Below are positions 4,264-8,461 of a stretch of DNA of 8,590 bases, piece after piece. This DNA is from JACRDV01 sp024860865 [NCBI: Methanobacteriota archaeon] (lineage in GTDB: Archaea > JACRDV01). The position numbers were made by a program, and so were the translations under genes. Positions within the stretch are counted from its first letter, which is position 1. Each line of letters begins with the position of its first letter. The stretch covers positions 1 through 8,590 of the forward strand of contig JACRDV010000022.1 in the NCBI GenBank assembly GCA_024860865.1. The letters run 5' to 3'. The notes under the pieces were generated by a model. It had not been told where the DNA came from and did no database searches. It saw only the letters and a list, made by a program, of their open reading frames with translations.

Positions 4264-5139
4264 ATGCTAACAGTAAGTGAGCGAGCCGCAGTTATTTCAA
4301 CTGTTTTAAACATAAGTTTTACTCTCTTAAAGTTACTAGCTGGTTTGTTGTCTGGAAGTTTAGGTTTAATTGCTGAAACAGTACACTCTGCTATGGATTC
4401 TTTTTCATCAATTATCGCTTTCTCTGGTTTACATTTCGGAAAACGACCTCCTGACGTAACTCATCCCTATGGACATGGTAAAATTGAGACATTTAGCGGT
4501 GCTTTAATCACTTTAGTTCTGATTATTTCTGGAGTTACCATTGCTTGGGAAGCTACTCAGAGAATATTGAAAGGTAGCTACGTTCAGTTTACGGTTTTTG
4601 GATTTATAGTCGTTTTAGTCTCAATATTCTTCAATGAAGCCTTAGCGAGATATGAATTTAAAATAGGGCAACAAACTGCAAGCATATCGTTAATCGCTGA
4701 TTCATATCACGCAAGAAGTGATGTACTCAGCTCAATCTCAGTTTTAATAGGTTTAGTTGGAGTAAAGTTTGGTTTTCTAATCATAGATTCAATTGCCGCA
4801 TTAGCCGTTACTATTTTGATTATTAGAACAGGAGTGAGAATAGGGCATGAAGCAATCGATGTCTTACTGGATATCAGCCCAAGGCCAGAGGTCATAAAAG
4901 ACATTGAAACAACTTGTTTAAGTGTCCCAGGTGTTAAGAGTTGTCATGCTATAAGGGCAAGAAAAGCCGGCGGGAGAATTCTAGTTGATTTGCACATTAA
5001 AGTTGACCCTGGTCTAACCGTCAAAGAGAGCCATAAGCTGGCTACTAAAGCGGAAACACGAATAAAGGATAAAATTGCTGGGATTGAGTCTGTATTGACC
5101 CATGTTGAGCCTTTAGAGAATAAAAACAAAGGGGTTTAG
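4264..5139 (+). CDS. Cation diffusion facilitator (CDF) metal transporter
   Basis: This 291-residue CDF protein should export a divalent metal such as zinc across the membrane in exchange for protons. Six membrane helices are visible within about residues 9-190, followed by the cytoplasmic metal-sensing ferredoxin-like domain (about 205-285). The transport site is read as His41 and Asp45 in helix 2 (AETVHSAMDSFSS) with His149 and Asp153 in helix 5 (ADSYHARSDVLSS). This HD-HD set is usual for zinc-type CDFs, whereas FieF/YiiP has DD-HD. The loop motif DVTHPYGHGKIE (64-75) matches the second zinc site, and His244, His280 and Glu282 are candidates for the C-terminal site. I chose ATG 4264, with GGAG 6 bases upstream, over the in-frame TTG at 4231, because MLTVSERAAVIST is a typical CDF beginning. 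The substrate is inferred, not shown. Confidence 0.92.
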   Translation: MLTVSERAAVISTVLNISFTLLKLLAGLLSGSLGLIAETVHSAMDSFSSIIAFSGLHFGKRPPDVTHPYGHGKIETFSGALITLVLIISGVTIAWEATQRILKGSYVQFTVFGFIVVLVSIFFNEALARYEFKIGQQTASISLIADSYHARSDVLSSISVLIGLVGVKFGFLIIDSIAALAVTILIIRTGVRIGHEAIDVLLDISPRPEVIKDIETTCLSVPGVKSCHAIRARKAGGRILVDLHIKVDPGLTVKESHKLATKAETRIKDKIAGIESVLTHVEPLENKNKGV

Positions 5140-5147
5140 TTTTTTTT
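5140..5147 (+). terminator. Oligo-T terminator of the CDF gene
   Basis: Eight T residues follow the transporter stop codon immediately. Archaeal RNA polymerase stops at such runs without needing a hairpin. It separates the transporter from the tRNA gene about 40 bp further on. Confidence 0.6.
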
Positions 5148-5206
5148 CCGATAGTTATTTGGGGCAAAAATTAATTCTTAAATAAATGAAGCCGGGTGGG
5201 GTAGTG

Positions 5207-5237
5207 AAGGTTTAGAAATCATTCTAAACCTCTATAA
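5207..5237 (+). other. D-loop tRNA intron, 31 nt, between G18 and G19
   Basis: The central helix is GTAG (5201-5204) with CTAT (5232-5235). The 5' bulge TG^A and 3' bulge AA^G mark the cuts. The intron folds into a perfect 10-bp hairpin, AGGTTTAGAA with TTCTAAACCT and loop ATCA. The outer helix is only GG/CC. Confidence 0.88.
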
Positions 5238-5258
5238 GCCAATCCTGCGGGGCTTTGG

Positions 5259-5274
5259 AGATAGAATCGAAGAA
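5259..5274 (+). other. Anticodon-loop tRNA intron, 16 nt, position 37/38
   Basis: Exon CTTT (5253-5256) pairs with intron GAAG (5269-5272). Bulges are GG^A and AA^A, and the intron hairpin is GAT-AGA-ATC. The outer helix is the anticodon stem. This is the canonical archaeal intron position. Confidence 0.9.
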
Positions 5275-5295
5275 ACCCCGTGACCGCGGTTCGAA

Positions 5296-5316
5296 TTGAG
5301 GAAAACCTCACGGATC
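5296..5316 (+). other. T-loop tRNA intron, 21 nt, position 59/60
   Basis: Exon TTCG (5290-5293) pairs with intron CGGA (5311-5314). Bulges are AA^T and TC^T, and the intron hairpin is TGAGG-AAAA-CCTCA. The outer helix is the T stem. Cutting here rebuilds the invariant T loop TTCGAAT. Confidence 0.9.
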
Positions 5317-5505
5317 TCCGCGCCCGGCTATCCAGTTTTCATACTTAATCAACACTAATTTATGTAAATCCCTGTTGAAGGTATATCCGAAGCATGACCT
5401 AGAATATGTAAAAGAAAAAGTTTAGAAGAATTTAAAAGAGAAATTGGCTTTTTGCCTAGCATTAAAATGCTGAAAATGTCTAACAAAAGCACAATGTGAG
5501 CAAAC

Positions 5506-5513: not shown

Positions 5514-5554
5514 CCTTTGTTACATAAAAATATTAATAGCCCCGTGGGCTAGCG

Positions 5555-5583
5555 AGACTTTAGGAGTATCCTAAGTTCTAGAA
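5555..5583 (+). other. D-loop tRNA intron, 29 nt, between G18 and G19
   Basis: The central helix is CTAG (5549-5552) with CTAG (5578-5581). Bulges are CG^A and AA^G, the outer helix is GG/CC, and the intron forms a hairpin of about 9 bp with one bulged T (5559) and a GTA loop. Position and cut sites match the D-loop intron of the TTG gene. Confidence 0.85.
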
Positions 5584-5599
5584 GCCAATGCTGGCGGAC

Positions 5600-5616
5600 A
5601 TCCAAGTTGACCGCAA
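5600..5616 (+). other. Anticodon-loop tRNA intron, 17 nt, position 32/33
   Basis: Exon GCGG (5594-5597) pairs perfectly with intron CCGC (5611-5614). Bulges are AC^A and AA^T. The intron helix is only TC/GA and the outer helix about one pair, so the motif is relaxed. The cut restores loop CTCTGGA with U33. The intron also competes with the tRNA fold, since ATCCA (5600-5604) can pair with TGGAT (5619-5623). Confidence 0.8.
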
Positions 5617-5660
5617 TCTGGATCCGCAGGCACCGGTTCGAATCCGGTCGGGGCTACCAA

Positions 5661-5861: not shown

Positions 5862-6323
5862 ATGATTCCAAAAGAATTTTTCATCACTAGCGGAAAAGCT
5901 GTTAGCAAAGTCTCAGCTTTAAATGCCTTTGATCTAGCCTTAGTAAATGCTGGTATAGCCCAATGTAATCTCGTTCCAGTTTCTTCGATTTTACCGCCAA
6001 AAGCAAAACAAGTCCGCAGAAAAAACTTTCCTATTGGTTCAATCACCCATGCTGTAATTGCTCGCATGGATGGTAATGAAGGTGAGACAATTGGAGCAGG
6101 AATTGCCTGGGCTTGGGAGAAAGGAGCTACGTATGGCTTAGTTGCGGAAGCCCATGGCCATATGGATACAAAGGCTTTAAAAGAAGTTCTTGAATGGAAA
6201 ATTACAGAGATGGCAAAAATTAGATCCATTGAGCTCGGAGAAATAAATTATAAAATTGAGGAACTTTGGATTCCAATGGATAACTATGGGTCGGTAATTT
6301 CTGCACTTGTATTCTTGTTTTAA
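5862..6323 (+). CDS. pdaD: Pyruvoyl-dependent arginine decarboxylase
   Basis: This 153-residue proenzyme decarboxylates arginine to agmatine, the first step of archaeal putrescine and polyamine synthesis. It cleaves itself between Ser41 and Ser42 in VSSILPP (40-46), and Ser42 becomes the pyruvoyl group. This gives a beta chain of 41 residues and an alpha chain of 112. GLVAEAHGH (92-100) carries the catalytic Glu95, and GSITHAVIARMDGNEGETIGAG (59-80) is the conserved trimer-core region. Length is close to the known archaeal enzymes. The frame is fixed by these motifs; an ATG 8 bases upstream is out of frame and stops at once. The family is common in Euryarchaeota, while Sulfolobus uses an unrelated S-adenosylmethionine decarboxylase-like enzyme, a small clue to lineage. 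It converges on the MoaD-like gene. Confidence 0.95.
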   Translation: MIPKEFFITSGKAVSKVSALNAFDLALVNAGIAQCNLVPVSSILPPKAKQVRRKNFPIGSITHAVIARMDGNEGETIGAGIAWAWEKGATYGLVAEAHGHMDTKALKEVLEWKITEMAKIRSIELGEINYKIEELWIPMDNYGSVISALVFLF

Positions 6324-7892: not shown

Positions 7893-8461
7893 CTAAGTGA
7901 AAAAGCAAGCGAGATTGAGGGAATAATATTTCGATAAAGATAAAAATAAATGTATCTGTGTGATATGAAATTTTACTGCCGTTCTTTTGAGTGCCTTTCT
8001 ATCAAAATCTAAACCTTGCCATTGCAAATTCCTCACTTCATTCAGGCGCAAACCGGCATAGTAGAGGAACACGAGAACAAGTTTGTGCTTAATATTGTTT
8101 GTCACTTCAATCATTTTATTCACTTCCTCCTTGCTCAGCACTACAGGTAGCTTCAAGGTTTTTTAGCGAGAGGCAACTTTTCCTCGAATTTTTCATGCAA
8201 CACATTTTCATAGAAAAATCTTAAAGCAAAATATGTCACTCTCATAGTGGATTTGCTCTTATTGGATTGCGATAAAAGGAATTCCCTCGGTGTTTTGCCA
8301 AATTTTGAGGAAAAATTCTTAAACACGGAAATGTAAACCTTGCCGGTTTGGTAGGAATACTTTCTAAGCTTTATCTCTTCAATCAGCTTTCCTATGAGCT
8401 GGTATCGTTGCTGCGGCGAAAGGGTTTTAATTTCTGCATGTGAATCTCTATAGTGAAACAT
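7893..8461 (-). pseudogene. Frameshifted, truncated tyrosine recombinase (integrase)
   Basis: Two adjoining frames together resemble a XerA/phage-type tyrosine recombinase. The first (8461 to 8153, 102 residues) is the SAM-like core-binding domain: LIEEIKLRKYSYQTGKVY and TMRVTYFALRFFYENVLHE, ending LPLAKKP. The second (from TTG 8156 to 7893) begins the catalytic domain with KLPVVLSKEEVNKMI and YYAGLRLNEVRNL, which holds the first catalytic Arg. They are one base out of frame at a run of six A (8159-8164): one more A, or a -1 slip, gives LAKKTLKLPVVLS. After LDFDRK similarity is lost, and the HxxR region and the active-site Tyr are missing, as are recognisable remains up to the moaC promoter. 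It is therefore inactive as it stands, and marks a past integrating element. Confidence 0.75.

Follow-up and report, generated by a model that had tools for sequence, protein, structure and literature searches.

The question raised by this locus, a contig of 8,590 nucleotides (the window) in the 1.54-Mb, 0.73% contaminated genome of an uncultured archaeon, is whether a glutamine tRNA gene broken by three introns can be genuine and, if it is, which kind of splicing endonuclease would remove introns from the D loop, the anticodon loop and the T loop of one transcript. The first-pass annotation had read the locus as a tRNA-Gln(TTG) with introns in these three loops, a transcript of nearly twice the mature length, and junctions that each combine a 4-bp central helix with two 3-nt bulges and rebuild a loop on cutting. 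Every element of this description was borne out, the coordinates being exact and the spliced 73-nt tRNA complete.

Anatomy of the two glutamine tRNA genes

The interval 5190-5330 is a real pre-tRNA-Gln(UUG) carrying three bulge-helix-bulge (BHB) introns, and a second gene, which was absent from the first-pass annotation, starts 207 nt downstream of it. The features are listed below, with tRNA position numbers (18/19, 37/38, 59/60 and so on) that were assigned by us.

5190-5330, plus strand: pre-tRNA-Gln(UUG), 141 nt, mature form 73 nt, CCA not encoded
5190-5206, 5238-5258, 5275-5295 and 5317-5330, plus strand: exons of pre-tRNA-Gln(UUG)
5207-5237, plus strand: UUG gene intron 1, 31 nt, D loop, G18/G19 junction
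5255-5257, plus strand: anticodon TTG of the UUG gene, its loop CTTTGG/A completed by splicing
5259-5274, plus strand: UUG gene intron 2, 16 nt, canonical position 37/38
5296-5316, plus strand: UUG gene intron 3, 21 nt, T loop (TTCGAA/T, 59/60)
5538-5656, plus strand: pre-tRNA-Gln(CUG), 119 nt, mature form 73 nt
5538-5554, 5584-5599 and 5617-5656, plus strand: exons of pre-tRNA-Gln(CUG)
5555-5583, plus strand: CUG gene intron 1, 29 nt, D loop, G18/G19, central helix 4/4
5600-5616, plus strand: CUG gene intron 2, 17 nt, anticodon loop 32/33, central helix 4/4 (GCGG:CCGC)
5618-5620, plus strand: anticodon CTG of the CUG gene

The UUG precursor extends from position 1 (A5190) to the discriminator A73 (5330), which makes it 1.93 times as long as its product (141 versus 73 nt), and all three of its introns display four of four central pairs together with 3-nt bulges. 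In intron 1, the central helix is formed between GTAG (5201-5204) and CTAT (5232-5235) through the pairs G-U, U-A, A-U and G-C, with bulges at 5205-5207 and 5236-5238, an intron helix of 10 bp and an exon helix of 2 bp. Intron 2 pairs CTTT (5253-5256) with GAAG (5269-5272) between the bulges 5257-5259 and 5273-5275, its intron and exon helices being 3 and 7 bp long, while intron 3 pairs TTCG (5290-5293) with CGGA (5311-5314) between the bulges 5294-5296 and 5315-5317, with 5 bp in each helix. Cuts placed after the second base of each bulge restore UAGUGGCCAAU, CUUUGGA and UUCGAAU, and the spliced molecule is fully paired in the acceptor (7/7), D (3/3), anticodon (5/5) and T (5/5) stems, with the anticodon loop CUUUGGA; ARAGORN called this form tRNA-Gln(ttg).

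The CUG gene is followed directly after 5656 by a CCA in the genomic sequence. Its first intron occupies the same site as UUG intron 1 and is similar to it in sequence comparison, while its second has the weakest motif, with an intron helix of 2 bp and an exon helix of 1 bp; four of four central pairs are present at all five introns of the two genes. The spliced form was called tRNA-Gln(ctg) by ARAGORN. When the D-loop intron alone was excised, the same program returned tRNA-Leu(CAA), a reading that was rejected in favour of the alternative splice, which gives a tRNA-Gln aligning with unbroken orthologues. The tRNA pair is flanked by a cation-efflux gene (ending at 5139) and an arginine decarboxylase gene (starting at 5862). 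Elsewhere in the window, integrase-like frames lie in two pieces on the minus strand at 7893-8461, the one at 8153-8461 having a match to Pfam Phage_int_SAM_4.

The expectation that standard callers would overlook the UUG gene held for ARAGORN and Rfam, the two callers run. ARAGORN, applied to the raw 8,590 nt with the bacterial code and no archaeal intron search, reported no tRNA, and the Rfam tRNA model gave no match over the UUG gene and a sub-threshold match of 18.9 bits over the CUG gene. A genome of this kind can therefore wrongly look as if it lacked tRNA-Gln, both genes having been missed. An Rfam match to SNORA36 at 5129-5252, which lies under the gathering score and overlaps the 5' half of the tRNA, was taken as chance. 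A blind scan requiring acceptor pairing, U8, a T arm, four central pairs and a cloverleaf score of 33 or more after zero to three excisions recovered exactly two genes in the window, UUG and CUG, both on the plus strand; it returned none on the minus strand and none in 82 dinucleotide shuffles of the window (12 plus 70). The UUG pre-tRNA folds 4.3 standard deviations below its dinucleotide shuffles, and both precursors lie about 4 standard deviations below theirs.

Orthologues, host lineage and the tRNA intron census

An intact second tRNA-Gln(TTG), named by the first-pass annotation as the counter-evidence to look for, was sought across the genome by Rfam, T-arm and 5'-half searches, and neither it nor any other further tRNA-Gln was found in the 92.45% complete assembly among 26 Rfam matches, 46 T-arm pattern matches (many of them chance matches or fragments) and three matches of the tRNA-Gln 5'-half pattern, two of which are the UUG and CUG genes and one chance. 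The latter pattern was matched in 14 of 22 genomes, comprising the host, 20 named Bathyarchaeota and one named Thermoprotei. Reading of the 20 resulting loci by eye gave an unbroken 73-nt tRNA-Gln in 12, introns in three (L120, L121 and L127), a gene cut by a contig end (L118), chance matches in two (L110 and L128) and the locus under study in the remaining two. The three interrupted loci, from G075 and G064, are Bathyarchaeal tRNA-Gln genes that appear, by eye only, to have introns in the anticodon region, with further introns in the D or anticodon arm of the G064 tRNA-Gln on the same kind of reading.

A second orthologue set of 29 further archaeal loci, to which some genomes contribute two, yielded an unbroken 73-nt tRNA-Gln in 20, one intron in L041 and L046, and a 90-nt read in L048. 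L029, L047, L050 and L051 were left unsolved by the script; reading by eye gives an unbroken gene in L029 and in L047 and an intron of canonical type in L050. Two loci of this set, L033 (G057) and L034 (G014), contain tandem TTG and CTG tRNA-Gln genes; every one of these genes has a D-loop intron of 17-19 nt at 15/16, two mature nucleotides upstream of the G18/G19 site used in the genes described here. The two spliced forms and six orthologues chosen by us make a gapless alignment of eight mature forms. Since the unbroken orthologues align without a gap, the exon junctions of both genes are supported, and the intron-free orthologues match them.

The host was at first sight suggestive of a Bathyarchaeon, as 20 of 21 arginine decarboxylase loci are named Bathyarchaeota, and this assignment was given up in view of RpoB, of which the available part is 61% identical to that of G014, G027, G048 and G057, 57% to G080 (named Thermoprotei) and 47-54% to 11 Bathyarchaeota. 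The best PDB chains for this RpoB are the 8cro group (518 bits), 4qiw (504) and 2pmz (485), which are presumably Pyrococcus, Thermococcus and Sulfolobus chains. The host is the sole member of its phylum in the genome set compared. The pyruvoyl-dependent arginine decarboxylase itself (5862-6323) is 72% identical to Bathyarchaeota although RpoB places the host elsewhere, and its gene has probably been passed from one lineage to another. The upstream flanks of the 21 decarboxylase loci, searched for a T-loop motif over as much as 1.3 kb (only 90 nt in L071 and 527 nt in L077), yielded nothing tRNA-like.

The same resemblance of the neighbouring decarboxylase is what might lead one to regard the contig (C125) as a Bathyarchaeal contaminant, so that the tRNA genes and the endonuclease discussed below would come from different organisms. 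This is very unlikely, because the tetranucleotide use of the window correlates at 0.95-0.98 with four other contigs, including C51, the bearer of the endonuclease gene, whereas for three Bathyarchaeal loci the values range from -0.22 to 0.86 (G014, which has a higher GC, is likewise different from the window in this respect). Moreover, contigs C11, C81 and C147 of the genome carry multi-intron or T-loop-intron tRNAs, and G014 and G057, with their tandem Gln genes bearing D-loop introns, have EndAs in the clade nearest to that of the host. On the minus strand of L101 (C81), a glutamine-fructose-6-phosphate transaminase frame was observed with an apparent small intein-like insert.

Interruption affects most of the tRNA genes examined in the host genome, 27 out of 31. 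The script resolved 29 genes, of which four have no intron, 12 have one, 11 have two and two have three, for a total of 40 introns; two or three introns thus occur in 13 of 29. ARAGORN accepts 28 of the spliced forms and rejects that of Glu. The three-intron genes are Gln UUG and a Met gene on C11, the third intron of which has uncertain borders, as have the first of Glu(CTC) and both of Thr(GGT). Four central pairs are present in 30 of the 40 introns and three in the other 10; 22 combine four pairs with an intron helix of 2 bp or more, and in 10 the intron helix is reduced to 0-1 bp. Introns fall in the acceptor-D, anticodon, V and T regions, and the T-loop site UUCRAA/U is used in three tRNAs, namely Gln (21 nt), Phe (32 nt) and Tyr (239 nt). 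The two unresolved genes, Gly(CCC) and Pro(CGG), contain additional anticodon-loop bases and were counted as interrupted, the former being given one 13-nt intron in a separate script run. Arg(CCG) can alternatively be read as free of introns, at a lower score and with a long variable arm, and no His, Cys, Trp or Ile tRNA gene was resolved in the census. A control with near-identical code in the relative G014 found 23 genes without an intron, seven with one and none with more, that is, several introns in 0 of 30 genes versus 13 of 29 in the host; it covered 35 anchors, of which five gave nothing, from 30 of 45 Rfam hit loci plus L034, with at most two introns tried per gene.

Several tRNA-related objects were observed beside these counts. 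The tRNA-Tyr(GTA) gene with the 239-nt T-loop intron lies in L179 (C147) on the minus strand from 1256 downwards, and tRNA-Lys(TTT) at L106:1165-1522 (C100) has a 284-nt canonical intron with an 87-aa open frame lacking a Pfam match. Left out of the census were L093, L100, L105, L005 at 1982 and L020 at 2466, each with a plausible T arm and no gene, as well as one match at L171 and those lacking a T stem. L020 (C16) holds at 2445-2484 on the minus strand a miniature tRNA-like element in which the acceptor, the start of the D arm and the T arm are joined with no anticodon arm; it may be a pseudogene, a split half or a recombination scar. L093, L100, L105 and L005 display a T arm and the 3' end of an acceptor, the 5' half not being found in the locus, and could represent split-tRNA halves, attachment sites of elements or decayed genes.

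It could be supposed that both Gln genes are decayed pseudogenes and that glutamine is decoded by other tRNAs outside the assembly, considering that neither gene is uninterrupted and that the assembly is incomplete. Such decay is scarcely credible for genes whose spliced products have fully paired acceptor, anticodon and T stems and conserved loop invariants, the more so as the pairing is kept in two isoacceptors with different stems and as introns also break 25 further tRNA genes of this genome.

The splicing endonuclease

A Thermoproteales-like setting with a heteromeric endonuclease had been implied by the first-pass annotation, which proposed a genome search for two different subunit genes. 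The search did not bear this out: it gave one PF01974 (EndA) gene at E<=1 and no second subunit gene at that cut-off in the 92.45% complete assembly. The gene, on contig C51, adjoins frames read as TrpRS and PheST and encodes 182 aa with the Tyr, His and Lys triad intact, so that one gene of the size (about 170-190 aa) and triad of the alpha4 type was found. Relatives of EndA in viral contigs were looked for and none was found.

Among 21 comparison genomes, two PF01974 genes over the cut-off were found in 16, one in four (G071, G074, G076 and G078) and none in G066. The pairs consist of a catalytic subunit, into which a loop of the GIPKPK type is inserted, and a second subunit in which His is replaced (6/6 aligned). 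The loop is present in 11 of 12 aligned catalytic subunits from two-gene genomes, that is, in 6/6 of the Bathyarchaeota/Thermoprotei set and 5/6 of the others, G009 being without it. Judged by its place and its Lys rather than by alignment to the published loop, the insert would correspond to the crenarchaea-specific loop, and in the alignment the host EndA lacks this loop with its conserved Lys. In the four one-gene genomes, all named Bathyarchaeota, the lone gene is loop-bearing in three and of the other type in G078.

The host EndA joins, with a support of 0.63, a clade (0.86) of eight of the nine aligned EndAs from the phylum of G014, the ninth (G082) falling elsewhere. Across the 28 genomes of this phylum, a lone match passed the cut-off in 23 and no match in five, two matches being seen in none; all 11 of the genomes with a match that are at least 90% complete have one EndA. 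Ranked by E-value, the first PDB match is 5x89 from Methanopyrus kandleri, in two stretches of 85 and 63 bits, while the best single-stretch match is the alpha4 enzyme 1a79 (117 bits, query 16-182 against chain 7-171 of 171). Taken together, these sequence features suggest that the host EndA is most likely an alpha4 enzyme.

Alternatively, a heteromeric (alpha-beta)2 endonuclease could excise the introns, with the gene for its second subunit lying outside the assembled contigs. The completeness of only 92.45% leaves room for this, and a single gene is weak evidence by itself, because four of the 21 comparison genomes show one where 16 show two. In addition, three of four central pairs in 10 of the 40 introns would suit such an enzyme, the top match by E-value, 5x89, is itself a loopless (alpha-beta)2 enzyme, and the two-gene genome G009 is likewise loopless, so a loopless enzyme may still have two kinds of subunit. 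Against it stand the grouping of the host EndA with a phylum in which no genome has two matches and the best single-stretch match to an alpha4 enzyme. A heteromer is on balance unlikely; it is given this much weight, and the lone alpha4 reading considered below is held as tentatively as it is, on account of the one-gene genomes, the loopless two-gene genome and the rank of 5x89.

The locus is very probably a tandem of two functional tRNA-Gln genes whose precursors are spliced by EndA through a BHB motif at every junction. According to this proposal, each gene would be transcribed as a long precursor, the folding of which would place every exon-intron junction in a BHB, where four intron bases adjoining the 3' splice site would pair with exon bases, namely GUAG in the D arm, CUUU in the anticodon loop and UUCG in the T loop. 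EndA, probably acting as a homotetramer like the Methanocaldococcus enzyme, would cut both 3-nt bulges after the second nucleotide, and an RNA ligase, which we take to be RtcB, would join the exons, whereby the D, anticodon and T loops would be rebuilt in a 73-nt tRNA-Gln. Three points weigh against this explanation: the weak BHB of CUG intron 2, the 160-contig assembly, which may miss an EndA subunit or another tRNA-Gln, and the subsets of introns with three central pairs or an intron helix of 0-1 bp. Motifs that are paired at three of four positions or have short helices are reported, in the accessible part of PMC6379350, to be cut poorly by alpha4 enzymes, although, according to the same text, introns of this sort at 37/38 can be processed by an alpha'2 enzyme when the pre-tRNA is full-length.

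Comparison with known systems

Multi-intron tRNAs are known, with up to three introns per tRNA already described (PMC8450103, accessible sections), and the unusual part of this genome is the intron load alongside an alpha4-like enzyme. In the portions available of PMC4090602 and PMC6379350, lineages with alpha4 or alpha2 enzymes have few, mostly canonical introns and those with (alpha-beta)2 or loop-bearing enzymes have many, and only (alpha-beta)2 and epsilon2 enzymes cut relaxed motifs efficiently. No report of such a load in an alpha4-only genome was found in the literature searched, from which most subscription papers and Kaneta 2018 were out of reach. It is possible, and is put forward tentatively, that a phylum-level lineage evolved one of the heavier known tRNA intron loads while keeping a single loopless EndA of the alpha4 type. 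If so, heteromeric or loop-bearing enzymes would be dispensable for multi-intron, non-canonical tRNAs, and either the BHB kept at each site would suffice or the alpha4 enzyme would be unusually tolerant. Provided that its EndA set is complete, the genome would be a natural exception to the coupling of intron diversity with endonuclease architecture, and the three different junctions in one RNA offer ready substrates for asking if the limit lies with the enzyme or with the RNA motif.

In the Thermoproteales, exemplified by Pyrobaculum calidifontis with 71 introns in 46 genes (accessible parts of PMC8450103 and PMC3218864), the tRNAs are similar in having up to three introns, both canonical and non-canonical, and in being hard for callers, but the lineage is another one and the enzyme is (alpha-beta)2, whereas the host has one EndA gene found and no crenarchaea-specific loop. 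The view of the first-pass annotation that several introns in one tRNA are known mainly from this order is out of date, as the available text of PMC11291895 describes Asgard Atabeyarchaeia and Freyarchaeia with 92-95% of tRNA genes interrupted, more than half of them by several introns that are often non-canonical; these genomes resemble the host and differ from it in lineage. Caldiarchaeum subterraneum also has some multi-intron tRNAs and introns in the D, V and T arms, with 13 of 45 genes interrupted and three multi-intron (PMC3293823, in the part available), the corresponding figures for the host being 27 of the 31 genes examined and, for several introns, 13 of the 29 that were resolved. 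Partial precedents are provided by Korarchaeota, with one EndA protein, and by three thermophilic methanogens, all with non-canonical introns (PMC3218864, same sections), and G014, with its D-loop introns and one EndA gene, is another.

As regards the enzymes, the EndA of M. kandleri (5x89) is loopless like that of the host but has two subunit kinds versus one gene found, and it cuts relaxed motifs only slightly (PMC6379350 and PMC12397907, accessible portions). The alpha4 enzyme of Methanocaldococcus jannaschii (1a79) shares the triad and the lack of an extra loop, and the match of the host EndA spans its whole chain. Archaea with such alpha4 enzymes are mostly reported, in the available part of PMC4090602, to be poor in tRNA introns, which are canonical and single in each gene, and it is in this respect that the host genome differs from them.
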